27,229 nt of DNA from a virus: the IMG/VR virus record IMGVR_UViG_3300025030_000370, positions 1-27,229 of that record, one strand, 5' to 3'. A program made the position numbers and the translations under genes. Shown here piece after piece: positions 12,799 through 24,981 of this stretch (position 1 is its first letter; each line of letters opens with the position of its first letter). Below the pieces are notes generated by a model. It was not told where the DNA came from and did not search any database. It worked only from the letters and a program-made list of their open reading frames with translations.

Positions 12799-13172
12799 CG
12801 CTCTTCGACCTCCCCGACGATGCGCTGACGGGGATGTTCCTCGACGTGACGCGCCGTCGCCGCGCGGCGGGCTCCTACGTCTCCGGCCGGTGGGTGGACG
12901 GTGCGGAGACGACGGCGACGATCCGCGCGAGCGTGCAGCCCGCGACGCCACGCCAGATCGACAACCTCCCCGAAGCCGTGCGGACGCACGACGCCGTCAT
13001 GATCTACTGCGTCCCGGTCGTGCGCACGGTCGACGAGCGCACGCTACTGAAGGCCGACCGGATCGACTGGCAGGGAGAGCAGTACGAGGTCCACGGCGCG
13101 AAGTCGTGGGCGGTCGGGAGCCTCGACCACTACGAGGGGATCGCGACCCGCGTCGAGAGAGCGACTCCGTGA
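12795..13172 (+). CDS. head-tail joining (head completion) protein
   Basis: This is a 125-residue protein with a beta-rich pattern typical of small head-closure or minor capsid proteins: SVQPATPRQIDNLPEAVRTH, a middle part with LKADRIDWQGEQYEVHGAKS, and a final HYEGIATRVE. Proteins of this type form the ring between connector and tail terminator. The GTG overlaps the upstream stop, and the TGA overlaps the next GTG (GTGA at 13169-13172). The in-frame region upstream of 12795 is a shadow of the Cys-rich gene. Assignment rests on family resemblance and gene order. Confidence 0.7.
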   Translation: MTLFDLPDDALTGMFLDVTRRRRAAGSYVSGRWVDGAETTATIRASVQPATPRQIDNLPEAVRTHDAVMIYCVPVVRTVDERTLLKADRIDWQGEQYEVHGAKSWAVGSLDHYEGIATRVERATP

Positions 13173-13936
13173 TCGACGTAGCCGCCATCGAGACCGCCGT
13201 CCGGGCGTGGGTCGTCGCGGCGGTGAACGACGCAGCCGTGCCGGTCATCTTCGGCCAGCAGAGCGCGCCGCGCCCGGCGTCTCCCTACGTCGCGATCTGG
13301 CGCACGGGAATCGACCAGCCCGAGTGGGACGAGCCGCACGCCGTTGAGGAGCACCCCGTCACGGCGGTCAACCAGGGGGCCAGGCGGTTCACCGTCGCGG
13401 GCGACGCGCGCTTGTTCTACCCGGCTGGCGCGGCAGCGATCGTCGCCGATTCGACCGGCAACGACGGGACGTACACCGTGGCGTCCGCGACGTTCGCGGG
13501 CGGGAACACGGCGATCGTCGTCGTCGAAGCCGTCCCCTCGGCCGTCGCAGATGGCGTGCTGACCGGCGCGCGGCGGATCGTCGGCACGCGCATCCTGACG
13601 TTTCAGATCGACTGCATCGGCGGGACCGCGCTGCAACGCGCGGAGGGCATCAAGGCCGCGCTCGCAAAGCGGACGATCCTCGACGCGCTTTCGGCGGCCG
13701 GGTGCGCCGTCTACCGGAGCGAGCGCATCCAGGACCTGACGGGGCTCGTGGACACGGTGCGCGAAGCGCGCGCGGCGTTCACGACGCGGATCGCCGTCGC
13801 CTCGACGGAGCACGAGACGACGGGCATCATCGAGCGCGTGACCGGGACGGCGACGACGCTCGACGTAGACGGCACGGCGCTGCGGGCGGACCCGCTGATC
13901 GCCGACCAGCGCGTCACCCCCTACGAACCCGGCTAA
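13169..13936 (+). CDS. neck terminator-like protein (LIC_12616 type) with inserted beta domain
   Basis: This is a 255-residue protein. The N-terminus (PVIFGQQSAPRPASPYVAIW) and C-terminal half (TFQIDCIGGTALQRAEGIKA, then VDTVREARAAFTTRIAV) fit the phage neck terminator/LIC_12616 family, which caps the tail at the neck. Residues 73-134 are an insertion carrying the STGNDGTYTV-type domain that recurs in the sheath and baseplate genes. Without it the protein would be a usual length. The GTG start overlaps the upstream stop. The stop TAA touches repeat copy B. Confidence 0.78.
   Translation: MIDVAAIETAVRAWVVAAVNDAAVPVIFGQQSAPRPASPYVAIWRTGIDQPEWDEPHAVEEHPVTAVNQGARRFTVAGDARLFYPAGAAAIVADSTGNDGTYTVASATFAGGNTAIVVVEAVPSAVADGVLTGARRIVGTRILTFQIDCIGGTALQRAEGIKAALAKRTILDALSAAGCAVYRSERIQDLTGLVDTVREARAAFTTRIAVASTEHETTGIIERVTGTATTLDVDGTALRADPLIADQRVTPYEPG
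13385..13570 (+). repeat. STGNDG domain copy 1 (neck protein)
   Basis: Residues 73-134 of the neck protein: RRFTVAGDARLFYPAG, then STGNDGTYTVAS, then GNTAIVVVEAVPSAVADG. This is the cleanest copy of the repeated domain and shows its order: FTV strand, F-x-x-G turn, STGNDGTYTV, a GxTxI strand and PSAxADG at the end. Confidence 0.85.
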
Positions 13937-13962
13937 CCTCACGCCCGCCGTGTGACGTTGAC
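13935..13962 (+). repeat. 28-bp repeat, copy B
   Basis: It is identical to 8889-8916 at 27 of 28 bases. It begins inside the TAA of the neck gene and lies in the gap before the sheath gene. Its last six bases supply GTTGAC, overlapping the -35 box of the sheath promoter. Read as codons it would give NLTPAV then stop, close to the NLTPAA end of the HTH gene at copy A. Confidence 0.75.
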
Positions 13963-13986
13963 CGTTGCGTGCGCGGTCGGCAGGCT
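13958..13986 (+). promoter_or_regulatory. candidate promoter for sheath operon
   Basis: TTGACC (13958-13963), a 17-base spacer and CAGGCT (13981-13986) are followed by 8 bases and the sheath ATG. The spacing to the ATG equals that of the promoter at 16571-16599. The -35 lies at the end of repeat copy B. Confidence 0.5.
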
Positions 13987-13994
13987 AGGACTCG

Positions 13995-16130
13995 ATGTCC
14001 CTCGCCGACCATGTCCAGGTCACCGTTCGCCGCGTTCGGTCGCCCGCCGCGAAGGAGGGCTTCGGGACGATGATGGCGCTCGACGCCCATCGTCTGTGGG
14101 AGGACCGCTACCGCTCGTTCGCGTCCCTCGCCGAGCTCGAGGACGCCGGGGCGACGGCGCACGACACGCTGCACCGGCTCGCGACGGTCTACTTCGGGCA
14201 GGCGAACTCGCCCACGGCGCTCGGTGTCGGGCGGCTCGACTGCGGAGACAACGTGTGGGTCGAGATCGACGATCTCGCCTCGGAACTCCCCTACGACCTG
14301 ACGATCGCGGGCCTCCTGCACCGGATCGTCTCGGCGCCGAACGCAACCGAGGAACTCGTGGCGGGGAAGCTCGTCACGCAGATCAACGGCGGATACGAGA
14401 TCACGGCTGTGGCCGTGGGCCCCGCGGGCGTGTTCACGATCGCGGGCAATCACCTGGACGAGTTCGCCGCTGGGCAGACGTTCACGGTCGCAGGATCGAC
14501 CGGGAACAACGCGGGCTACACCGTGGCCTCTGTGGCGCTCAACGCGGGCAACACGGAGATCACTATCACCTCCGCGGCACCGCTCCCCTCCGCGGTCGCG
14601 GACGGCCACATCGGAGGCTACGCCGTGACGGCGTGCGTGGCGGGCGCCAGCGGTACGTTCACGACGCCCGGCGACGTGCGCGACCGCTTCCCCGATGGCC
14701 TGAAGTTCGGGATCTCCGGCTCGACGAACAACGACAACCGGACGGGTTCCGGCACGAGCATGGACGGCATCCCGTACGAGGTCGCCTCGACGACGGTCGC
14801 GGGCGGGAATACCGTCATCACGATCGCGACGACGGGCGGCGCGGTCATCCCCGGCGCACTCGGTGCGAACGGCGGCGGCATCGTGTCGTGGGCGGACGGA
14901 GACTCGGCGACGAGCACGGTCGTCGCGGACATCCTGTCGTACGACATCGCAGCCGTGGTCGCCGGTCCCGGCGGGACGTTCGCGTTTCCCGGCGACGCGA
15001 CCAGCCTCTTCCCGGCCGGGACGCAGTTCCGGGTCTCGGGCGCCACGGTTGCCGCGAACAACCGCCTGTGGACCGTGGGGGCCTCGACGTACACGGCGCC
15101 GAACACCGTCGTCACGGTCGTCGCGACGCAGACGGTCACGGCAGATGCGGGCGCGACGGGCAACGTCTCGCTCCCGATTCTCCGCACGGCCCCCGAGGAC
15201 GCGAACCAGTTCTACACCGTCGCAGCCTCCGATCGCCTGCACCTTCGGTTTGCGGTCTCGGCCGTGGATCTCACGGATGTCCGCAACGCCGACGACAACT
15301 GGTACGCGGTCATGGTCACGTCCCGGTCGTCCTTGGCGACCTCGATGCTCGCGGCGGCCGTCGAGGCAATCACCGACGCCCCCAAGATCGCGGGATTTGG
15401 CAGCGGCGACGACAGGATCGTGGACGACGATGTGACCGCGGACAGCCCGGTCACGGGCAGCATCGCGGCGCGCCTCGCGGGGCTGAACTACGCGCGCAGC
15501 TTCGTCGTCTACTCCGGCGACGGCGCGGGCGAAGACGGCGTCGGGCACAAGGTATGGAGCGGCTTCTCGGAAGGCGAGACAGACGACGACCCGTTCGTCG
15601 AGGCGGCGATTTTCGGCAAGATGCTCCCCTCTTTGCCGGGCTCCTCGACCTACAACCTTCAGGAGTTGACGGGCATCCTCGCCGACGATCTGACCGGCAC
15701 GCAGCGCACGAACGCGCTCGCGAAGAACGCGAATATCTACGCGGCGGTCACGGACACGAGCGACGGATTCCAGTCGGGCACGACGGCGCAACCCGAGTGG
15801 ATCGACATCATGGCGGGCCTCGACTGGCTCAAGTGGGACATCGAGACGCGCCTCTACAACCGCCTCTGGAGCGAGAGCAACGCGGGCCGCAAGGTGCCGT
15901 ACACCGATGCGGGTGCGGCGACCCTGGAGGGCGAGATCCGGGCGTCGGTGGACCTCGCGATCTCGCGCAACGTGATTGCCTCCGACCCCGCGCCGGTGTT
16001 CGTGACGCCCCCGGTCGCGTCGCAGAGCGCGGCCGATCGCGCCGCGCGTCGCTTCGCCGGGATGCAGGTGCGCTGCACCGCGGCTGGCGCGATCCACGTC
16101 GTGGGCCTGACCGTGGAAGTGGAGGTCTGA
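13995..16130 (+). CDS. contractile tail sheath protein, DUF3383-like, with three inserted beta domains
   Basis: This is a 711-residue protein, longer than the roughly 400-500 usual for the family. The N-terminal 125 residues (MSLADHVQVTVRRVRSPAAK, GFGTMMALDAHRLWEDRYRS) fit DUF3383-type sheaths. Residues 145-391 contain three tandem copies of the STGNDG-type domain, probably displayed on the outside of the sheath. From residue 400 the sheath fold resumes (RFAVSAVDLTDVRNADDNWY, then IAARLAGLNYARSFVVYSGD), ending with the C-terminal domain (NRLWSESNAGRKVPYTDAGA) that interlocks subunits. Sheath subunits contract to drive the tube through the cell envelope. The ATG at 13995 follows the promoter by 8 bases. 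Confidence 0.87.
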   Translation: MSLADHVQVTVRRVRSPAAKEGFGTMMALDAHRLWEDRYRSFASLAELEDAGATAHDTLHRLATVYFGQANSPTALGVGRLDCGDNVWVEIDDLASELPYDLTIAGLLHRIVSAPNATEELVAGKLVTQINGGYEITAVAVGPAGVFTIAGNHLDEFAAGQTFTVAGSTGNNAGYTVASVALNAGNTEITITSAAPLPSAVADGHIGGYAVTACVAGASGTFTTPGDVRDRFPDGLKFGISGSTNNDNRTGSGTSMDGIPYEVASTTVAGGNTVITIATTGGAVIPGALGANGGGIVSWADGDSATSTVVADILSYDIAAVVAGPGGTFAFPGDATSLFPAGTQFRVSGATVAANNRLWTVGASTYTAPNTVVTVVATQTVTADAGATGNVSLPILRTAPEDANQFYTVAASDRLHLRFAVSAVDLTDVRNADDNWYAVMVTSRSSLATSMLAAAVEAITDAPKIAGFGSGDDRIVDDDVTADSPVTGSIAARLAGLNYARSFVVYSGDGAGEDGVGHKVWSGFSEGETDDDPFVEAAIFGKMLPSLPGSSTYNLQELTGILADDLTGTQRTNALAKNANIYAAVTDTSDGFQSGTTAQPEWIDIMAGLDWLKWDIETRLYNRLWSESNAGRKVPYTDAGAATLEGEIRASVDLAISRNVIASDPAPVFVTPPVASQSAADRAARRFAGMQVRCTAAGAIHVVGLTVEVEV
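14427..15167 (+). repeat. STGNDG domain copies 2, 3 and 4 (sheath)
   Basis: Three tandem copies lie in the sheath: residues 145-208 (AGSTGNNAGYTVAS, PSAVADG), 220-296 (GTFTTPGD, SGSTNNDN, GNTVITI) and 326-391 (GTFAFPGD, FRVSGATVAANNRLWTV). Copy 3 has a roughly 12-residue insertion in the central loop. Copy 4 is the most divergent. Linkers of 12-30 residues, such as AVTACVAGAS and IAAVVAGPG, separate them. Confidence 0.8.
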
Positions 16131-16134
16131 TCCG

Positions 16135-16557
16135 ATGGCCGTCGCCACCTACGACCCGAGCAACCTGACGCTCTCGATTCTCGGCAGCGATCCGCACGGG
16201 TTCGCCGATGGCGAGTTCCTGCGGGCGGTTCCGGACGAGGACCTGTTCACAAAGACGGTCGGGGCGGATCGGGAGGTGGCGCGCGTCAAAAACGCCGCCG
16301 GAATGTCGGGCACGCTCGTACTGACGCTCCTCCAGTCCTCGACGTTCAACGCGGTCATGTCGGCCGCGGCGGCACTCGACCAGGCGAGCGGAGCCGGTGT
16401 CGGGCCCTTCGTCTACAAGGAGGGCGGCACTGTCCTCGCCGCCGGGGAGTGCTGGGTCAAGCGGCTCCCCGACGCGGCGTGGGGCAAGGAGATGGGGACG
16501 CGGGAATGGATCATCGAGGTGGCGAAGTTCACCGCATACTTCCTCGGTGGGAACTAA
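16135..16557 (+). CDS. tail tube protein, DUF3277-like
   Basis: This is a 140-residue protein that matches the DUF3277 tube pattern: VATYDPSNLTLSILGSDPHG, FADGEFLRAVPDEDLFTKTV, GADREVARVKNAAGMSGTL, LTLLQSSTFNAVMSAAAALD, and a C-terminal GTREWIIEVAKFTAYF. It forms the inner tail tube inside the sheath. It lies 4 bases after the sheath stop and is probably cotranscribed with it. The length is typical for the family. Confidence 0.9.
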   Translation: MAVATYDPSNLTLSILGSDPHGFADGEFLRAVPDEDLFTKTVGADREVARVKNAAGMSGTLVLTLLQSSTFNAVMSAAAALDQASGAGVGPFVYKEGGTVLAAGECWVKRLPDAAWGKEMGTREWIIEVAKFTAYFLGGN

Positions 16558-16570
16558 CCGAGGTCACGCC

Positions 16571-16599
16571 TTGCGCGTGAAGTCGGCGCGGGGTAGGCT
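16571..16599 (+). promoter_or_regulatory. candidate promoter for chaperone/tape measure block
   Basis: TTGCGC (16571-16576), a 17-base spacer and TAGGCT (16594-16599) lie entirely in the 50-base gap between tube and chaperone genes. The ATG is 8 bases after the -10 box and lacks a ribosome site, so the transcript would have at most one or two leader bases. Confidence 0.5.
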
Positions 16600-16607
16600 G
16601 GTCCCCG

Positions 16608-17129
16608 ATGCCCGCTCCTCGCGAGATCCAGATCCACGGCCGCACCTGGGCCATCGGCTACTTCCCGCCGGCGCAGGCGCTCCCGGTGTTCGGGCGCCTG
16701 CTGGCGTTCCTCGGTCCGGCGCTGGAGGGTGCGGCGGGGGAGGCGGTCAAGGCGATCGTCGCGCGCCTCCACGCCCTCGACCTCGACTCGGATCTCGGCG
16801 CGCTCCTGGGCGACGCGGTGAGCATCGCGAAGGCGATGGACTGGCCGGCGGTCGTGCACGGCGCCTTCGTCGTGGGGTGGGGCTCGCCGGCGTTCGGCGC
16901 GCTGGTGCGCGACCTGCTGGCCCAGTCGCGCTACAAGGACGGCCCGGCATGGATACCGGCCTCCGACTACCTAGAGGCCACGGACGGCCCCCTGGCGGGC
17001 CCGGAGGGCACGGAGACGCAGCTCCGGCTCGTGCTCGCCGTCGTGCGGAGCAACTTCGCACTCCCTTTCTTCTCGCGGACGTCCGCCGCCGTCTTGCCGC
17101 CGCCCGCGAGCCCGACCCCCGCGCCCTGA
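16608..17129 (+). CDS. tail assembly chaperone, short form
   Basis: This is a 173-residue, mostly helical protein between tube and tape measure genes, the standard place for the tail assembly chaperone (lambda G equivalent). It has EIQIHGRTWAIGYFPPAQAL, then VFGRLLAFLGPALEGAAGEA, as in such chaperones. The final 19 residues after the slippery site (SRTSAAVLPPPASPTPAP) are low-complexity, as expected for the unshifted end. It would bind the tape measure protein and keep it soluble until the tube forms around it. The ATG is 8 bases after a TAGGCT box. Confidence 0.75.
   Translation: MPAPREIQIHGRTWAIGYFPPAQALPVFGRLLAFLGPALEGAAGEAVKAIVARLHALDLDSDLGALLGDAVSIAKAMDWPAVVHGAFVVGWGSPAFGALVRDLLAQSRYKDGPAWIPASDYLEATDGPLAGPEGTETQLRLVLAVVRSNFALPFFSRTSAAVLPPPASPTPAP
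17063..17069 (+). other. -1 ribosomal frameshift slippery site CCCTTTC
   Basis: The heptamer C-CCT-TTC is in the exact phase (X XXY YYZ) of the short chaperone frame. After slipping back one base, the codons CCC and TTT keep perfect first- and second-position pairing. The -1 frame then stays open to 17344. Confidence 0.7.
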
Positions 17130-17344
17130 CGCCGGAGCGGTTCACGCGCTCGCGCATCGTCGGGCGCGCGCTCTGCCTGGAGTGGGAGTTGTGGGGGAGG
17201 CTCGCGTTGTCGGGCGTGGCGACGCGGCGCGAGATTGAGGAGTCCTGGTCCCTCGCCGACCTGTACCTCGCGCACCTGACCCTCGACTACCATGACGCGC
17301 GATCCGCGCCCGTGGTAGGATCGCCGGGAGGGAAACGCCCGTGA
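17069..17344 (+). CDS. tail assembly chaperone, frameshifted C-terminal extension
   Basis: These 91 codons are read after the -1 slip and give a fusion of about 245 residues (16608-17069 joined to 17069-17344). The extension begins FLLADVRRRLAAAREPDPRA and contains ERFTRSRIVGRALCLEWELW and LADLYLAHLTLDYHD, a pattern typical of the second chaperone ORF (lambda T equivalent). No ATG or GTG occurs in this frame between the slip site and about 17215, which argues against separate initiation. The stop TGA 17342-17344 overlaps the tape measure GTG. The same frame is open far upstream, so the slip position is inferred from the heptamer rather than forced by stops. Confidence 0.72.
   Translation, partial: LLADVRRRLAAAREPDPRALTPERFTRSRIVGRALCLEWELWGRLALSGVATRREIEESWSLADLYLAHLTLDYHDARSAPVVGSPGGKRP
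17293..17321 (+). promoter_or_regulatory. candidate promoter inside chaperone extension
   Basis: TAGGAT (17316-17321) is preceded by 17 bases and TGACGC (17293-17298), and 20 bases before the tape measure GTG by a GGGAGGG ribosome site. The 24 bases 17298-17321 match the element before the small terminase (3189-3213) except for one extra base and one substitution there. Confidence 0.4.
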
Positions 17345-18813
17345 CCGTACGCGAGTTGATCGTGCAGTGGGGCTTCAAGGTCGACGACCGCCGGCTGAGG
17401 GCGCTCGACTCGACGATCAACGCGACGCGTACGGCGATCCTGGCGGTCGGGGCCGCCGGAGTCGCGGCGGCGGGCGCGATCTTCGGCCTCGCGCGCTCTG
17501 TCGGCCAGGCGGCGGACGCGGCCGGCGAGGCGGCGCAGCGCGTCGGGATCTCGGCGAAGAACCTCCAGGAGTTCCAGTACGCGGCGAAGCTCGGCGGCCT
17601 CGAAGCCGAGGGCGCGGAGACGGCGATCGGGTTCCTGTCGCGCTCGATGGTCGAAGCCGCGAAGGGCGGGAAGGAGAGCGCGGCGTCGTTCCGCGCGCTC
17701 GGCGTGCGCGTCAGGGGCGCGAAGGGCGAGCTTCGCCCGACCTACGACGTGATGCTCGACGTGGCGGACGCCTTCGCGAAGATGCCGGACGGCGCGGAGA
17801 AAACCGCGCTGGCGATGCGCGTCTTTGGGCGCTCCGGCCGCGCGATGATCCCGACGCTGAACCTCGGGCGCGTCGGAATCTCGAAGCTCGCCGACGAGGC
17901 GAACCGTCTCGGGGTCGTGCTCTCCGGCGAGACGATCGCGGCGGCGGACGAGTGGGAGCGGAAGACGGTGGCGGCCGAGGCGGCGATCGTCGGGATCAAG
18001 AACACGATCGGCTCCGCGCTCCTGCCCGTCGTCGGGGACATCGCCGACAAGATCAGGAAGTGGGCCGGCGAGAACCGCGAGTTGATCGCGCAGAAGGTGA
18101 CGGAGTGGTTGCAGCGGGCCGTCGAGTGGGGCGCGAAGGCATGGACGTGGTTTGACAGGATGGCGACGCGGGTCGGGGATCTCGTGGCTGCGGTCGGCGG
18201 TCTCGACGGTGCGATTCGGTTGCTGGCGACCGGGTGGGCGGCGTTCAAGGCCGCCGAGATCGCGGTCGGCGTCTGGCGGCTTTTCTTCGCCACGTCGGCG
18301 TTGGCCGGTCTCGCCGGGCCAATCGGACTTCTCGCGGCGGGGCTCGTGGCCGTGGCCCTGAACTGGGACACTGTATCGAGGCACTACTTGATGTTTCTCG
18401 ACGAGATGGCCCACGGGATCGACGACTTCCTGAACCTGCCCGTGATCAAGCAGTTGATGTGGCTGCTCGACAACCTGTTCGGCCTCACGAAGATCGCGGG
18501 GTTCGTGGGCGGCGTCGAGAAGACACGATTCGCGTCGCCGGAAGAGGTCTCCCGCGTTGCGCGCGAGGCCGACGCGGCAAATCTCCAGTCGTGGCTCAAC
18601 GACCGCGTGACCGCGCCGGTCGTGTCGCAGCTTCCGTCGCGCCTCGCGCCCCCGGTCGGTCGCGGCGCGGTCGGGCGCACGGAGATCGTCATCCACCAAA
18701 ACCTTCCTCCCGGGACGCCCGAGGCGACGCGGCGCGCGGCGGCCGAGGGCGGGCGCATGGCCGCGGACAGCGTTTCGGCGGCGGTCGCGCGCGCCGCGGC
18801 ACAGGCGGGCTAG
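17341..18813 (+). CDS. tape measure protein
   Basis: This is a 490-residue helical protein following the frameshifted chaperone. The N-terminus (VQWGFKVDDRRLRALDSTIN) leads into a hydrophobic stretch at about 31-52. Then comes a tape-measure-type region (AAQRVGISAKNLQEFQYAAK, FGRSGRAMIPTLNLGR). A second hydrophobic region at about 300-345 (GPIGLLAAGLVAVALNW) is typical of tape measures that may insert into the host membrane. The C-terminus is Ala-rich. By the family rule of about 0.15 nm per residue the tail would be near 70-75 nm. The GTG overlaps the previous TGA and has a GGGAGGG site upstream. Confidence 0.88.
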   Translation: MTVRELIVQWGFKVDDRRLRALDSTINATRTAILAVGAAGVAAAGAIFGLARSVGQAADAAGEAAQRVGISAKNLQEFQYAAKLGGLEAEGAETAIGFLSRSMVEAAKGGKESAASFRALGVRVRGAKGELRPTYDVMLDVADAFAKMPDGAEKTALAMRVFGRSGRAMIPTLNLGRVGISKLADEANRLGVVLSGETIAAADEWERKTVAAEAAIVGIKNTIGSALLPVVGDIADKIRKWAGENRELIAQKVTEWLQRAVEWGAKAWTWFDRMATRVGDLVAAVGGLDGAIRLLATGWAAFKAAEIAVGVWRLFFATSALAGLAGPIGLLAAGLVAVALNWDTVSRHYLMFLDEMAHGIDDFLNLPVIKQLMWLLDNLFGLTKIAGFVGGVEKTRFASPEEVSRVAREADAANLQSWLNDRVTAPVVSQLPSRLAPPVGRGAVGRTEIVIHQNLPPGTPEATRRAAAEGGRMAADSVSAAVARAAAQAG

Positions 18814-18816
18814 CCG

Positions 18817-19401
18817 ATGTCCTTCGACGTTCTCGGCCTGATCTTCGCCGGGAAGGCAAAGACCACCTTCACCGGCCTCGACGTGACGCTTGACGCCGCC
18901 GAGGTCATCGCACACTCCGTCCGCAACACCGTGTCGCGCGAGGTGCGCGAGGACGGATCGGCCGTCTCCGACAACGTCGTGAGCGAGCCCGACGAGTTGA
19001 CCGTCACCGGGCTTGTCTCCGACTACCCGGTATCCGTTCTCGGCGGATCTCTGGAGGGCGCGGCGGCGCGCCTCTCGGCGACGTTCAACACGGAGCCCGT
19101 GGAGCAGCCGTCGCAGACGGCGTGGCAGCGGCTCAAAAAGGCCGCGACGGACCACACGCTCGTCGGCGTCGTGACGCGCCTCGGCACATACGAGGACATG
19201 CTGATCGAGGACCTGACCGCAACGCAGGACCGCTCGACGGCGCATAGCCTCCGATTCACCGCGCGCTTCGTGAAGATGGCGACGGCGACGACGGATGAGA
19301 CCGGGCTTCTCGACGTGCTCGACGACGTGCTTCCGGGGACGGCCGACCTCGCCGCCGGAACGCAGGACCGCGGCGCGCAGACGGCGCAGGTGGCGCCGTG
19401 A
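18817..19401 (+). CDS. Dit-like baseplate protein
   Basis: This is a 194-residue protein located after the tape measure. The pattern SREVREDGSAVSDNVVSEPD, then LTVTGLVSDYPVS, a middle stretch with LVGVVTRLGTYEDMLIEDLT, then TAHSLRFTARFVKM matches Dit-type N-terminal domains of contractile baseplates. It forms a ring attached to the tube end. The ATG follows the tape measure stop by 3 bases, and the stop overlaps the next GTG (GTGA at 19398-19401). The last 25 residues are a polar tail. Confidence 0.8.
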   Translation: MSFDVLGLIFAGKAKTTFTGLDVTLDAAEVIAHSVRNTVSREVREDGSAVSDNVVSEPDELTVTGLVSDYPVSVLGGSLEGAAARLSATFNTEPVEQPSQTAWQRLKKAATDHTLVGVVTRLGTYEDMLIEDLTATQDRSTAHSLRFTARFVKMATATTDETGLLDVLDDVLPGTADLAAGTQDRGAQTAQVAP

Positions 19402-19712
19402 GCACGCGCGTCCCAACGACGGCCGACTCTCCCACCTACGATCAGGTGAGCGACCTTGGGCGCAGGCTCTACCGGCTCGGCTTCCGCTACAACGCGCGGG
19501 ACGGCTCGTGGTACCTGTCCGTCGCGACGCAGGGCGGCACGGCGCTCGCGGAGGGGCGCAAGTTGCGGATCGACTGGGACACGCTTCGGCAGTTCTCCGA
19601 CGCGCGCCTCCCGGACGGCGTATTGTCGCTCCCCGACGCGGACGGGTCGCGCGTCGAACCGGGCCGCGACGACCTCGGCTCGCGGCTGCACCTCACCTTC
19701 GACGAGGCGTGA
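19398..19712 (+). CDS. baseplate plug protein, DUF6983-like
   Basis: This is a 104-residue protein with YRLGFRYNARDGSWYLSVAT, GTALAEGRKLRIDWDTLRQF and DDLGSRLHLTFDEA, the pattern of the small plug protein found in baseplates of short-genome contractile phages (cyanophage Pam3 type). It would close the central channel of the hub before contraction. The GTG overlaps the Dit-like stop, and the TGA is one base before the next gene. Confidence 0.75.
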   Translation: MSTRVPTTADSPTYDQVSDLGRRLYRLGFRYNARDGSWYLSVATQGGTALAEGRKLRIDWDTLRQFSDARLPDGVLSLPDADGSRVEPGRDDLGSRLHLTFDEA

Positions 19713-19713
19713 C

Positions 19714-20667
19714 GTGGGCGAGCTTTTCGGCCGCCACGCACGAGTCACGATCGGCGCCCCCGGCGAGGGCGCGCTCGTGATCGACTCCGGCGACCCGCCG
19801 AAGCGCGGATTCCGGATCGCATTCGCGTGCGAGAAGTCGCTGAAATCCTCGCTCAACTCCGCGACGGTGCGCGCGTGGAACCTCTCGGAGGCGAGCCGTT
19901 TTCGCATCCAGCGCGACCGCACTCGCTTCCTTTTGGAGGCCGGCTACCAGCGCGACCTCTTCGGCGTGTTCAAGGGGCAGGCAACGCGCTCGTGGACCGC
20001 GCGCGAGGGCGCGGACCTCGTGACCACGATCGACAGCCTCGACGGCTACGACGCCGTGCAGGACTCCGAGGTGGCGAAGGTGGACCCGCGCGCGGGCCAG
20101 CGCGTCGCGGTGAAGTTCCCGGCGGGCACGCGGATCGACGCGCTGATCGAGGCCGTCGCCGCGTTCCTCACGCTCGGCGGCGACGTGCGCCTCGGGGACC
20201 TTGACGCGGCCTTCGCGGAGATCGAACTGGAGGCGGCCGAGCGCGGTCTCCCGTTCGCGCTCGTGCGGTCGCTGACGCTGGAGCACAAGGCGGGCGACGT
20301 GCTCGATCGGCTCGGGCGCATGTACCGCTTCGACTGGTCGATCCAAGACGGCGTGCTCGAGCTCCACCCGTGGGATCGGATCTGGCGCGGGGACGTGGTC
20401 GAGGTGACCCCCGCGACCGGGTTGATCGGCACGCCAACCCCGATCTGGCAGGCGACGCGCGAGGGCGGCGAGACGGGCACCGTGATCGGCGCACGCTTCA
20501 CGAGCCTACTGCGGGCGTCGATCCGCCCCGGCGCTCTCGTCTCGCTCGCGTCCGAGGCCGTCTCCGGGACGTTCCGCGTGCACTCGACGCGGTACGAGGG
20601 CGACACGATATCCGGGCCGTTCTCCGTGGACGCCGAGTGCTACAACCTGCCGGGCGTGGTGGAGTGA
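19714..20667 (+). CDS. baseplate hub protein
   Basis: This is a 317-residue protein between plug and spike. FRIAFACEKSLKSSLNSATV, RAWNLSEASRF, LLEAGYQRDLFGVFKGQATR and GADLVTTIDSLDGYDAV are typical of phage hub proteins of the gp27/gp44 group (tail ring domains). The later part includes a LysM-like/hub segment (RLGRMYRFDWSIQDGVLELH) and ends with a beta domain (VSLASEAVSGTFRVHSTRYE). It would carry the spike at the centre of the baseplate. The GTG lies one base after the plug stop, and the TGA shares its last base with the ATG of the spike gene. Confidence 0.78.
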   Translation: MGELFGRHARVTIGAPGEGALVIDSGDPPKRGFRIAFACEKSLKSSLNSATVRAWNLSEASRFRIQRDRTRFLLEAGYQRDLFGVFKGQATRSWTAREGADLVTTIDSLDGYDAVQDSEVAKVDPRAGQRVAVKFPAGTRIDALIEAVAAFLTLGGDVRLGDLDAAFAEIELEAAERGLPFALVRSLTLEHKAGDVLDRLGRMYRFDWSIQDGVLELHPWDRIWRGDVVEVTPATGLIGTPTPIWQATREGGETGTVIGARFTSLLRASIRPGALVSLASEAVSGTFRVHSTRYEGDTISGPFSVDAECYNLPGVVE

Positions 20668-21251
20668 TGGGCGGCCGGCTCCCCGAGGCGGGCGCGGACC
20701 TCACGACGTTGGCGAAGCGGCACACGGAGCGCGCCCTCGAAGGCGTGCGGGCCGTGACCCTCGCGCGCGTCGCGACGTTCACGGGCTCGACCGGCGCGCG
20801 GCGCCAGCCCACCGCGACCGTCGAGCCGCTTGTGCCCCGGTGGGTGGACGACGACGACCCGATCCACGACGGCCCGCTCGACGACGTGCCCGTGTTCTTC
20901 CCGGGGTCGCGCGGGCTCCGCCTCGACTGGGCGCTGTCGGCCGGCGACTTCGTGGTCGTGCTCTTCTGCGACCGGGCGATCGACGACGTGATCGTGCAGC
21001 TGATGGGCTCCGGGTCGCTCGACCCGCAGCCGACGAACCGCGCCTCGACGCATCTCCACGAACTCGGGAACGCCGTGGCGATCCCGGTGGCGACGTTCGG
21101 CAACGCGACGCAGGTGGACCTCCTCGACCTCCTGCGCGACTTCCTCGCGCTTGTGCAGACGGCGACGACCGGCCTGGGCGACGCGACGCTGAACCCGGCC
21201 CTCCAGGCGCAGGTGGCCCTCATGGTCGCGCGACTTGACGGAGTGCGATAG
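20667..21251 (+). CDS. baseplate spike protein, gp138 N-terminal-like
   Basis: This is a 194-residue protein. An OB-fold-like region VRAVTLARVATFTGSTGARR, then ATVEPLVPRW, VPVFFPGSRGLRLDWALSAG and DFVVVLFCDRAIDDVI matches gp138-type membrane-piercing spikes. The C-terminal part is short and helical rather than a long beta-helix needle, so the tip may be provided by another protein. The start overlaps the hub stop by one base. Its TAG stop (21249-21251) is part of the candidate -10 box for the next gene. Confidence 0.8.
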   Translation: MGGRLPEAGADLTTLAKRHTERALEGVRAVTLARVATFTGSTGARRQPTATVEPLVPRWVDDDDPIHDGPLDDVPVFFPGSRGLRLDWALSAGDFVVVLFCDRAIDDVIVQLMGSGSLDPQPTNRASTHLHELGNAVAIPVATFGNATQVDLLDLLRDFLALVQTATTGLGDATLNPALQAQVALMVARLDGVR

Positions 21252-21254
21252 GAT
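21249..21254 (+). promoter_or_regulatory. candidate -10 box before small baseplate gene
   Basis: TAGGAT lies exactly 6 bases before the ATG at 21261, as for the small terminase, with no ribosome site. A TTGACG occurs at 21235-21240 but only 8 bases upstream of the box, too close to act as its -35. The TAG is also the stop of the spike gene. Confidence 0.35.
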
Positions 21255-21260
21255 GGGCCA

Positions 21261-21506
21261 ATGCCGCTGAACGCCGCAGCCGCCGATGCCGTTGCCGCGC
21301 AGATCGTCGCGGACGTGCTCGCGTTGCCCAAGGCGACGGCGACCTCACAGGACTATTGGCAGGCGGCCGTTCGGCGCATCTTCGCGGGCGTGGCGTTGAA
21401 CGCCGTGGTGAACACCGTGGACGCGGTGGCGAGCGTGTCCGGCGTGACCGTGGGCGCGGGCGTTTCCGGCCCCGGGACCGGGACCGGGGTGGGCACGGTG
21501 TCCTGA
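21261..21506 (+). CDS. small baseplate-associated protein, unknown
   Basis: This is an 81-residue protein. A helical N-terminus (AAADAVAAQIVADVLALPKA) and a Val/Gly-rich C-terminus ending SGPGTGTGVGTVS are features shared by small phage proteins next to spike and wedge genes. A role near the baseplate is inferred from position. The TGA overlaps the next ATG by one base. No SD is present; see the TAGGAT box upstream. Confidence 0.65.
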   Translation: MPLNAAAADAVAAQIVADVLALPKATATSQDYWQAAVRRIFAGVALNAVVNTVDAVASVSGVTVGAGVSGPGTGTGVGTVS

Positions 21507-21868
21507 TGGCCGACCTCACCGACCTCCCGCTCGACCCGGACACGCACGACCTCCTGTTCACGGGCGGCGATCTGGTCATGCTCGACCCCGGCGACGCGCT
21601 CGCGCAGCGCATCCGGATTCGCCTTCGCTCGTGGAAGGGGGAGTGGTACCTCGACTCCACTTTCGGGGTGGACTACCGGGGCAAGGTCCTCGTGAAGAAT
21701 GCCGATCGCGCCGTCGTCGCCAACCAGTTCCGGAGCATCGTCGAGAGCACGCCCGGCGTCGCGCGGATCGTCACGTTCGAGACCGATTACGACGCGACGG
21801 CGCGCAAGATGACGATCACAAGGTGCGCGGTCGAGGCGGACTCCGGTGCGCTCGTGGAGGTGCTCTGA
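21506..21868 (+). CDS. baseplate wedge protein, gp25/GPW-like
   Basis: This is a 120-residue protein with the family pattern: FTGGDLVMLDPGDALAQRIR, LRSWKGEWYLDSTFGVDYRG, VANQFRSIVESTPGVARI and a final beta hairpin. Proteins of this type are the conserved sheath initiator of contractile systems and link the sheath to baseplate J. The ATG and TGA each share one base with their neighbours (TGATG), so translation is coupled with baseplate J. Confidence 0.85.
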   Translation: MADLTDLPLDPDTHDLLFTGGDLVMLDPGDALAQRIRIRLRSWKGEWYLDSTFGVDYRGKVLVKNADRAVVANQFRSIVESTPGVARIVTFETDYDATARKMTITRCAVEADSGALVEVL

Positions 21869-23835
21869 TGGTCTTCGGACTCGGCCCTACGGGGTTCGGG
21901 ATCAAGCGGCTGACGGACGTGCTCGCCGACCTCAAGGCGGCGGCGGCAGCGCAGTTCGGCGCGGGCGTCAACACGTCCAGCGACGGCGCGCTCGGCAAGG
22001 CGCTCGGGATCTTTGCCGAGCCGGTCGCGGAGTTGTGGGCGCTCGCACAGGCGGTGTGGTCGTCGCTATCGCCTTCGACCGCCGAGGGCGTCGCGCTCGA
22101 TTCGATCGTCGAGTTGAACAACGTCGTCCGCCTCGCGCCCGACGAAACGACCTTCTGGGCGCGGCTCGACGGGACCGATACCACGGTCGTTCCCGCGGGC
22201 TCGACGGTGCAGCACCCCGAGGCGCTCGACTCCTACGCGACCGATGCGGACGCGACGATCGACTCGGGCGCAGCGCTTCGGCTCGACGTGCTCGTGTCGG
22301 CGACGGGCGTAGGCAACTGGATCGTGACGATCGACGGCACGGCGTACACGTTTGTTGCGGGAGCCGTCACGCCGCAGCAGATCGTGGACGGTCTCGCCGC
22401 CGTCATCAACCGCACGCCGGCCGACCTGCCGATCCTCGGTGGCGCGGTGAACCAGATCACGCGCACGTTCACGCTCGCCGCCGCGGCGGGCAACGTCACC
22501 GCCGAGTTCCCGGTCGGGCTCGGGATGCGCGTGTTCGGCTCGACGGGGAACGACGGGATCTACACCGTCGTCTCGCGCACCTTCTCGGGTACGCAGACGT
22601 CGATCGTCGTCGCCGAGGACATCCCCGACGCGACGGTGGACGGCAACGTGGCCAAGGGGCTGACGGCTTCAAGCACGGGCGTTCCCGACGCGGACGACCC
22701 CGACGCCGGGAGCCTCGCTGCGAACACGCTCCGCATCCTCGTCCACTTCCCCGCGACGGCAGACGACGCAAGTCTCTACGCGCTCGCCGCCGTGCTCGGG
22801 GCGGCGCCGGGCGCGGGCGCGTGGGCGCTCGCGTCGGTCGGGTCTGCCGCGCTCGTGCGCGCGAGCGAGACCGGGCCGAAGGCGGTCAACGCGAGCGTGG
22901 AGTTCTCGATCCTCTCCGGCGTCGCCGGGTGGGCGGGCGTGTGGTCCGTGCTCGCGGGCGACACGGGGCGCGACCTCGAATCCGACGCCGACCTGCGAAT
23001 CCGGCGCCTCGCGTCACTTCAGCAGGGCGGCTCGACGGTAGACGCGATTCGGGCCGCGCTCCTCGCGCTCGACGGCGTGGACGTGGTGTTCGTCTACGAG
23101 AACGACACGGACGTGGCGATCGGCTCGCGCCCGCCGCACAGCACCGAGGCCGTCGTCGAGGGCGGGTTGCCGGCCGACATCGGGCAGACGATCTTCGACC
23201 AGAAGGCGGCCGGCATCGCGGCCTACGGCACGCGCTCCGTCAACGTGACCGATTCGATGGGCGTCGTACACGGCATCGGCTACTCGCGCGTGACGCTAGT
23301 GCCGATGTTAGCCGTCGTACACGTCCGCACGCTCTACACCGAGGAGACGCTGCCGGATACCGCCGCCGACCTTCTCGCCGCGGCCCTCGCGGCGTGGGGC
23401 AACGCGCACACGATCGGACAGGACGTGATCGCGGGCCGCTCGTGGGGCGCGCTGTACGCAGCCGTCCCCGGGCTCGGGGTGCTCGACGTGCTGATCGCTC
23501 CAACCAGCGGGGTGGCGCGGGCGCTCGACGAATCCGACGCCGTGAACGACTACCTCTACCTCGAAAACGGGGTAGGAGACGTGACGGCGATCTTCGTTCC
23601 CGGGGTGCGCTTCGTCGTCTCCGGCAACACGGCGGGCCTCAACGGCTGCTACACCGTGCAGTCCTCGGCGTTCGTCGCCGGCCGCACGCGGATCACCGTC
23701 GATCAGGACGTGGTGACCACCGTGGGCGCCGGGGCGAACGGCTCGACGTTCCTCGCCTACGACACGAACGCGATCGGCGACACGTCCCGCTCGACTTTCG
23801 ACGCAGTCTCCGTCCTCGCGGTCCTCCCGCCGTAG
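21868..23835 (+). CDS. baseplate J-like protein with two STGNDG domains
   Basis: This is a 655-residue protein, longer than the 300-500 usual for J. The N-terminus (LKAAAAAQFGAGVNTSSDGA, LWSLSP-like WSSLSPSTAEGVALDSIVEL) and the core (GRDLESDADLRIRRLASLQQ, AIRAALLALDGVDVVFVYEN, LAAALAAWGNAHTIGQDV) fit the baseplate J/gp47 family, which forms the wedge arms. Residues 130-180 hold another beta segment (WIVTIDGTAYTFVAG). Residues 199-261 and 572-628 are copies of the repeated domain. The ATG overlaps the wedge stop. The stop is followed 6 bases later by the next gene. Confidence 0.85.
   Translation: MVFGLGPTGFGIKRLTDVLADLKAAAAAQFGAGVNTSSDGALGKALGIFAEPVAELWALAQAVWSSLSPSTAEGVALDSIVELNNVVRLAPDETTFWARLDGTDTTVVPAGSTVQHPEALDSYATDADATIDSGAALRLDVLVSATGVGNWIVTIDGTAYTFVAGAVTPQQIVDGLAAVINRTPADLPILGGAVNQITRTFTLAAAAGNVTAEFPVGLGMRVFGSTGNDGIYTVVSRTFSGTQTSIVVAEDIPDATVDGNVAKGLTASSTGVPDADDPDAGSLAANTLRILVHFPATADDASLYALAAVLGAAPGAGAWALASVGSAALVRASETGPKAVNASVEFSILSGVAGWAGVWSVLAGDTGRDLESDADLRIRRLASLQQGGSTVDAIRAALLALDGVDVVFVYENDTDVAIGSRPPHSTEAVVEGGLPADIGQTIFDQKAAGIAAYGTRSVNVTDSMGVVHGIGYSRVTLVPMLAVVHVRTLYTEETLPDTAADLLAAALAAWGNAHTIGQDVIAGRSWGALYAAVPGLGVLDVLIAPTSGVARALDESDAVNDYLYLENGVGDVTAIFVPGVRFVVSGNTAGLNGCYTVQSSAFVAGRTRITVDQDVVTTVGAGANGSTFLAYDTNAIGDTSRSTFDAVSVLAVLPP
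22462..22650 (+). repeat. STGNDG domain copy 5 (baseplate J)
   Basis: Residues 199-261: RTFTLAAAAGNVTAEFPVGL, then FGSTGNDGIYTVVS, GTQTSIVVAEDIPDATVDG. It lies in the extended N-terminal half of baseplate J, before the conserved core. Confidence 0.85.
23581..23751 (+). repeat. STGNDG domain copy 6 (baseplate J, C-terminal)
   Basis: Residues 572-628, near the end of baseplate J: VTAIFVPGVRFVVSGNTAGL, then NGCYTVQSSAFVAGRTRITV. NTAGLNGCYTV replaces the usual STGNDGTYTV. It is a more divergent copy. Confidence 0.75.
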
Positions 23836-23841
23836 CCGACC

Positions 23842-24981
23842 ATGCTTGCCCGCTGGATACCGCAGCACTTCGCCCGGATGCTCCGGCTCTTGCCGGGGCA
23901 GTTCCCCGGCGATCCGCGCGAGGGAGATTCCGGCTGGCAGCAGATCGTGCGTGCACTCGCGCACGCGGGCGGCGGCGACGCGATCACGGCGATCGACGCG
24001 ACGGCGCGGACGTTCACGCTGGCGGACGACCAGACCGCGCGCTTCCCGGTCGGATTCCTCGCCGAGTGCGGCGGGTCGAGCGCGATCCCGCGCGCGATCG
24101 ACGGCGTGAACGACGGTCGGTACACGGTGACAGCGGTGGCGCTGGTTGCCGGGTCCGCCGTGGTCACGGTCGCCGAGGCGATCCCGTCCGCGGCGCCGGG
24201 CGACCTCGGCTATCTGCGCGGAGACGACACGGCGGCGGTCGTCGCGTACGGGCTCCAACAGATCGAGGAGGTTCTCTTCGACCTCCGCAACCTCCTGACG
24301 TTACGCCGCGCGACGGGGCGCGCGCTGGAGGTGCCCGGCGAGATCCTCGGCCTCGTGCGCACGTCCACTGACGACGAGGTGTACCGCGCCGACCTCTACC
24401 TCCAGGCCGCGATCAACCACTCGCGCGGGACGATCGAGCAGATCAACGCCGCGGCGCAGGGCATGGCCGGCCCCGCTGCCGTCATCCTCCTCCTGGAGCA
24501 CCCGCTCGCGCGCATCTTCCTGCACGTGATCGGCTACCTCGTGCCCCCGGCGACGCGCGCGCGGTTGCGGCGGATCAAGGCCGGCGGCGTGGCGATGGAC
24601 CTGATCGGCGGGGACATGGCCGTGCCGTTCGTGTTCGGGTACGACATGGACGCGGCGGGCGTGGGCGCCGATCCGCCCGGCGAGGACCCGGACGGAGAGG
24701 GCTTCGGCGAGGCGTACCCGATCGTTGCGGTGCTCGTGGGCGGAGCGGGCGCGGGGGCGTTCTACGTCGCGAACGACTGCACCGCCGCCCTCGTTGCGGG
24801 CGACCCGCTCACCGTCGTCGGCAGCACGAACAACGACGGCACGAAGACGATCGTGACCCTCACCTACGAGGCCGGTCCGGTCCGCACGCGGATCGACGTG
24901 GCCGAAGCCGTGCTTGCCGTCGCGGACGGGCAGGTCCTCGACGGCGGCGACGGCTCCGGTGACTTCTGCGAGGTGTGGTAG
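23842..24981 (+). CDS. baseplate protein, DUF2612/tail protein I-like, with two STGNDG domains
   Basis: This is a 379-residue protein directly after baseplate J, where tail protein I is expected. The N-terminus (LARWIPQHFARMLRLLPGQF) and centre (LRNLLTLRRATGRALEVPGE, EVYRADLYLQAAINHSRGTI, EQINAAAQGMAGPAAVILLL) match DUF2612-type proteins that connect wedge to tail fibres. Copies of the repeated domain occupy residues 56-123 and 303-369, the latter forming the C-terminal end. Between them is an acidic linker (GADPPGEDPDGEGFGEA). The start ATG follows the J stop by 6 bases. Confidence 0.78.
   Translation: MLARWIPQHFARMLRLLPGQFPGDPREGDSGWQQIVRALAHAGGGDAITAIDATARTFTLADDQTARFPVGFLAECGGSSAIPRAIDGVNDGRYTVTAVALVAGSAVVTVAEAIPSAAPGDLGYLRGDDTAAVVAYGLQQIEEVLFDLRNLLTLRRATGRALEVPGEILGLVRTSTDDEVYRADLYLQAAINHSRGTIEQINAAAQGMAGPAAVILLLEHPLARIFLHVIGYLVPPATRARLRRIKAGGVAMDLIGGDMAVPFVFGYDMDAAGVGADPPGEDPDGEGFGEAYPIVAVLVGGAGAGAFYVANDCTAALVAGDPLTVVGSTNNDGTKTIVTLTYEAGPVRTRIDVAEAVLAVADGQVLDGGDGSGDFCEVW
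24007..24210 (+). repeat. STGNDG domain copy 7
   Basis: Residues 56-123 of the DUF2612-like protein: RTFTLADDQTARFPVGF, then GVNDGRYTVTAVAL and TVAEAIPSAAPG. VNDGRYTV is the core motif here; the loop before it is longer (GGSSAIPRAIDG). Confidence 0.8.
24748..24948 (+). repeat. STGNDG domain copy 8
   Basis: Residues 303-369, at the C-terminus of the DUF2612-like protein: GAFYVANDCTAALVAG, then VVGSTNNDGTKTIVT, then TRIDVAEAVLAVADGQV. It ends 10 residues before the protein end, so the domain is the terminal module here. Confidence 0.8.

Follow-up and report, generated by a model that had tools for sequence, protein, structure and literature searches.

A small beta domain is inserted eight times in four unrelated virion proteins of an uncultured phage. 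We think it rather probable that this module is an independently folding closed beta-barrel of about 70 residues, used by tailed viruses as an exchangeable accessory domain of their virion proteins and contributing to adhesion; that combined statement takes most of its weight from the parts established below. The window, i.e., the whole stretch of DNA analysed, is positions 1 to 27,229 of IMG/VR record IMGVR_UViG_3300025030_000370 and is probably a fragment rather than an entire genome. Four of its genes host the module:

13169..13936, + strand: neck (tail terminator) protein of the LIC_12616 / PF23961 family (PF23961, E 5.8e-16), with copy 1
13995..16130, + strand: tail sheath protein, DUF3383 / phrog_205, 711 aa (phrog_205, E 1.5e-62), with copies 2-4
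21868..23835, + strand: baseplate wedge J-like protein, 655 aa (phrog_6, E 3.2e-41), with copies 5-6
23842..24981, + strand: DUF2612-like baseplate protein, 379 aa (PF11041, E 0.0028, under the cut-off), with copies 7-8

The neck protein matches PF23961 in two stretches, the better of which (135-227) directly follows the module in a Pfam search, and matches NF047498 in an NCBIfam search (E 2.3e-18). The sheath matches PF11863 (E 6.1e-17), reaching 62 bits against the Pfam cut-off of 34.9 for DUF3383, and a fold search with it returned the sheaths of Bas63, Sf14 and PhiTE. The wedge relatives of solved structure for the J protein are 9zd7 and 9ndy, and the DUF2612-like protein also matches baseplate PHROGs 1160, 4017 and 4056. 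A 295-aa open reading frame close to the record's left end (758-1645) has several CxxC pairs resembling zinc ribbons.

The eight copies, each with its E value from a profile built without window sequences, are as follows:

13361..13585, + strand: copy 1, in the neck protein (E 3.2e-27)
14394..14618, + strand: copy 2, sh1, first in the sheath (E 1e-20; AlphaFold2 pLDDT 96.3, pTM 0.86)
14619..14885, + strand: copy 3, sh2, second in the sheath, with a loop insertion (E 3.7e-6)
14940..15167, + strand: copy 4, sh3, third in the sheath (E 1.3e-8)
22450..22659, + strand: copy 5, J1, internal in the J protein (E 6.4e-23)
23548..23751, + strand: copy 6, C-terminal in the J protein (E 6.3e-10)
23977..24222, + strand: copy 7, D1, in the N-terminal part of the DUF2612-like protein, with a loop insertion (E 6.6e-12)
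24715..24948, + strand: copy 8, D2, C-terminal in the DUF2612-like protein (E 7.7e-13)

These segments are homologous to one another. The profile, drawn from other viruses only, recovered exactly eight copies, with E values from 3.2e-27 to 3.7e-6, and gave no further significant match among nine window proteins. All 28 of the 28 pairwise comparisons scored above shuffles (z 3.3 to 18), and tblastn with the neck copy against the whole record found just the same eight places, the worst at E 0.0019. The first-pass annotation, made from the sequence alone, had proposed this very count and distribution (one copy in the neck, three in the sheath, two each in the J and DUF2612-like proteins), and the shuffles, tblastn and independent profile all bear it out. 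Its estimate of 57-77 residues for the module fits only in part: the segments measure about 68-89 aa, the excess reflecting the loop insertions in sh2 and D1.

Comparison with relatives shows that the module is an insertion, optional at clean insertion points. The neck copy is cleanly missing in a relative (L155:13914-14831, related genome G002), whose neck protein is module-free, with both flanks joined directly. The sheath has three copies in the window and in the related genome G001 and one in G002 and L189, while 51 of the 54 sheath relatives found have no module and are mostly 381 aa long; sh2 and sh3 are missing in the sheath L026:5610-7214. The internal J copy lies at the same place in the window, G001 and G002 and is missing in 43 of the 45 J relatives found. 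The C-terminal J copy was seen in the window only, being missing in all three aligned relatives, as was D1, none being detected in the G001 or G002 relatives. The C-terminal copy of the DUF2612-like protein is common to all three genomes; the fibre protein has a copy in G001 and none in the window. Copy number consequently differs among three close genomes. The proposal that the module had been added to unrelated families, at insertion points or ends, is thus upheld by relatives that do without it, and the opposite case, a segment present in every homologue, does not occur. It is very improbable that the segments are integral parts of each family that came to resemble one another by convergence of glycine-rich beta segments. 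Turn motifs like NDG are indeed frequent in beta proteins, but the pairwise scores lie far above shuffles, an independent profile matches the copies, and most sheath and J relatives lack the segment.

How the copies arose is a separate question. Likeness of the DNA around them had been taken to suggest duplication within this genome lineage, an argument that does not survive a codon comparison: where two copies have the same residue, they share the codon in 396 of 659 cases, and the record's codon usage alone would give 369 (the pairs are not independent), so the DNA likeness is about as great as codon bias and conservation of the proteins would produce. Some copies are also closer to counterparts in other genomes, and recent duplication within the genome is therefore unsupported. 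For example, sh1 is 66% identical to the G001 sh1 and 32-44% to the other window copies, and the closest relative of D2 is the G001 D copy (50% identity). The neck copy is 52% identical to J1 and 54% to the G002 D copy, but 42% to the G001 neck copy. A copy and its positional counterpart in another genome are often mutual best matches, and a tree of 127 copies (70 columns) is poorly resolved, with p 0.13 in a one-clade test. The picture that these sequence comparisons suggest is of an old set of copies, part of which was passed down in place, and of some exchange among proteins or with other sources.

The module is widespread among viruses. When 2.9 million viral contigs were scanned with a strict motif, 111 viral stretches came up, in virion proteins of very diverse kinds; masking the motif left 116 of 122 sites matching the profile, as against 0 of 122 shuffled. 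The stretches fall in 85 non-redundant host proteins, 82 of which were scanned and matched 77 PHROG families, with virion classes chief among the 25 listed. These matches include sheath, baseplate wedge, central fibre J, DUF2460, head decoration, glycoside hydrolase and internal virion families, and the copy is internal in 124 of 167 cases. Among 20 records, which are not a random sample, G012 has 18 copies on its contig, G013 12, G011 8 and G001 7. In the large viral contigs of G012 (L083) and G013 (L090), copies are spread across many open reading frames, some over 3,000 aa.

Such breadth bears on the idea that a coding segment which folds by itself and does little harm simply moves by recombination, with no selected function. 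The very wide range of host proteins, the erratic presence and absence and the differing insertion points all suit near-neutral spread of this kind. On the other hand, fold residues are conserved although overall identity among copies over many hosts is 30-40%, which argues for maintenance of the copies; orthologues persist from one genome to another, and several viruses keep many copies, as G012 does. We therefore regard near-neutral spread as improbable, if well short of negligible.

Outside viral contigs, the same motif scan was applied to 84,980 prokaryote genomes and picked up 26 stretches, with about a dozen strong copies, mostly in metagenome-assembled genomes (MAGs). Four prokaryote genome contigs (L164, L167, L168 and L175) have long open reading frames with several weak, divergent copies; these may be phage proteins, or may belong to a related family of repeats found outside phages. 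We searched 50,697 phage records by blast with four copies and the consensus, followed by a profile search of the resulting records, and the profile matched three. The cultured phage XacN1 has three copies; LR756504, from an uncultured phage, has one clear copy and a second at E 0.0013; and the baseplate J protein of Shewanella phage QDWS matches weakly (E 6.5e-5 in its genome) and is missed by the other profile. Phage zrk29-1 gave the same blast match as QDWS. tblastn of single copies (the neck copy and two others) found no match in cultured phages, and tblastn against plasmids found none. Since blast is less sensitive than the profile, the rarity of the module in cultured phages is a tendency rather than a count.

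One family of module-bearing proteins has an archaeal connection. In L174, which comes from a MAG of the Asgard archaeon Borrarchaeum, a 313-aa protein (L174:1671-2612) has a C-terminal module and shares 48-50% identity along its length with proteins from five IMG/VR contigs. The family, of 313-339 aa and with the module C-terminal, comprises this protein and members in L017, L032, L038, L093 and L097. Two genes downstream of the L097 member is a tail sheath gene, and in L174 a tail lysin gene is close by. On these gene contents, the family fits tailed viruses of archaea, though the MAG binning may be wrong.

AlphaFold2, run on an alignment of 77 copies, predicts an all-beta domain of about six strands (mean pLDDT 96.3, pTM 0.86), which is strong evidence, and we have high confidence in the prediction that the module of ~70 residues folds autonomously. 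A Foldseek search of the model against the PDB gave no match reaching E 0.001. Leading the matches were the N-domain of Klebsiella K1 capsule lyase, T5 tail protein pb9 and phi92 endosialidase, together with ubiquitin E1 enzymes, F1-ATPase and EF-Tu; in E1 the part matched is likely the FCCH domain. We infer from the known folds of these proteins that a small closed barrel is their common element. Closer matches exist among predicted viral structures (TM 0.87 for H9YRQ5). Conservation, as read from 63 copies without the scan motif, falls mostly on turn glycines, core hydrophobics and an (S/T)TGN(D/N)G turn; we discount conservation of STGNDGxYTV as functional evidence because the scan itself selected for that motif.

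As the first reading had supposed, the module belongs to no named family: no curated Pfam or NCBIfam family covers it, the match to PHROG 1236 is weak, and the motif string had no match in a literature search. The middle region of PHROG 1236, annotated as a head protein, is matched by 31 of 77 copies (best E 1.4e-6) and may contain a distant copy, judging by sequence. We rejected it as the module's family since the matches are weak and partial, covering about 40-60 of its 177 positions at about 40-110, and the four window host proteins do not match it. A PDB sequence search with the profile gave an alcohol dehydrogenase as its best match (E 0.021), which we dismissed as chance.

The nearest characterized folds are the K1-lyase_N and endosialidase beta-barrels, the best PDB matches (Foldseek probability up to 0.99, yet E 0.11 and TMq 0.54). 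These barrels sit in capsule-degrading tailspikes, whereas the module sits in sheath, neck and wedge; the endosialidase barrel contains a polysialic-acid site (PMC12632334). K1-lyase_N (PF24145) is matched weakly by the sequences of 4 of 77 copies, the best at E 0.0026, with the module consensus scoring 16 bits against a gathering cut-off of 27, and the pb9 A-domain has a weak Pfam match to module copies (E 0.0059). The E1 FCCH domain and other small barrels (EF-Tu, the F1-ATPase beta N-barrel) are similar by Foldseek at E values that are not significant. E1_FCCH (PF16190) gave no Pfam match to the 77 modules at E 0.05; it matched one module-bearing host protein, at a region not located relative to the module.

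The closest parallel in usage is with the Ig-like accessory domains of phage virion proteins, small beta domains that relatives have gained or lost on numerous unrelated structural proteins and for which weak glycan binding has been proposed (Fraser et al. 2006, cited in PMC10684548). The module likewise proved optional and promiscuous, inserting into several structural proteins, so the earlier comparison with Ig-like decorations stands as an analogy. It fails on fold, the one being an Ig sandwich and the other a small closed barrel. An Ig fold for the module was rejected: the 50 listed PDB matches are mostly barrel proteins, none named Ig, and Ig/Fn3 Pfam families gave single insignificant matches (Fn3_arc 0.027, DUF4469 0.11). 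The BACON domain of crAss-like phages, as described in PMC6949934, is a repeated small domain with a suspected glycan role; that description, rather than sequence, sets it apart, as its repeats are in tandem within one protein and the module is distributed over several.

What might such a domain do? The module would be gained and lost at loops or ends where the core of the host protein accepts an insert, and copies would then protrude from neck, sheath and baseplate. Surface exposure is suggested by known structures, in which extra sheath domains sit away from the tube and a role in adhesion or stability has been proposed (PMC9230969). With three per sheath subunit, each virion would bear very many modules. 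These may bind glycans of the host envelope or matrix weakly, avidity keeping the virion near the cell, or oriented on it, before the receptor-binding proteins engage. We hold this adhesion role at a little under an even chance, from the nearest folds, one with a known glycan site, and the parallel with Ig-like domains. Structurally, the module comes closest to phage proteins that bind capsules or lie at the tail tip, and the weak Pfam matches are of the same kind; the carbohydrate analogy is nonetheless a weak one, given the absence of a PDB structure match at E 0.001. The conserved residues are as readily explained by a need to keep the fold as by a binding site, and module orientation is not readable from the full sheath model, which is low in confidence (pLDDT 66, pTM 0.53).

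Alternatively, the barrels could be structural, touching neighbouring subunits and so stiffening or cementing neck, sheath and baseplate with no host binding. An extra sheath domain of phage 812 is reported to contact a neighbouring subunit and probably to stabilise the sheath disk (PMC9230969), neighbouring parts of a virion could make contact if neck, sheath and baseplate all bear the same module, and conservation is chiefly of fold residues. However, most copies are missing in some relative, and fibres, glycoside hydrolases and decoration-type proteins, which would not be expected to share a partner surface, have the module too. A clamp is thus unlikely, though a more serious contender than near-neutral spread, and what probability remains beyond these two and adhesion goes to other roles. 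More tentatively than weak glycan binding itself, we suggest that a virus-enriched barrel family forms a general adhesion coat in bacterial and Asgard-linked tailed viruses of mostly uncultured lineages, where neck, sheath, baseplate, fibres and large virion proteins would all bear the module at once and a contig can have up to 18 copies.

Promiscuous Ig-like phage domains have been known for years, and their function is unsettled. The module adds a second fold, unrelated to the first, that is put to the same use and often sits on several of a virion's proteins; it allows an independent check of whether tailed viruses wear coats of weak-binding domains. Unnamed as it is, and nearly absent from cultured phages, the family escapes the current annotation of environmental viruses, and its inserts blur the profiles of sheath, J and neck proteins.

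A second small domain, YxVTIxGTxYTYxSDxxATxxEIxxGLxxAIN, lies beside the module at 14247-14387 in the sheath and 22276-22410 in the J protein, directly preceding sh1 and J1, respectively. It may be another shared accessory domain, as its sheath-only profile finds J proteins that have no barrel module (L273, E 2.4e-7; L248, 8.4e-6; L255, 1.3e-5).
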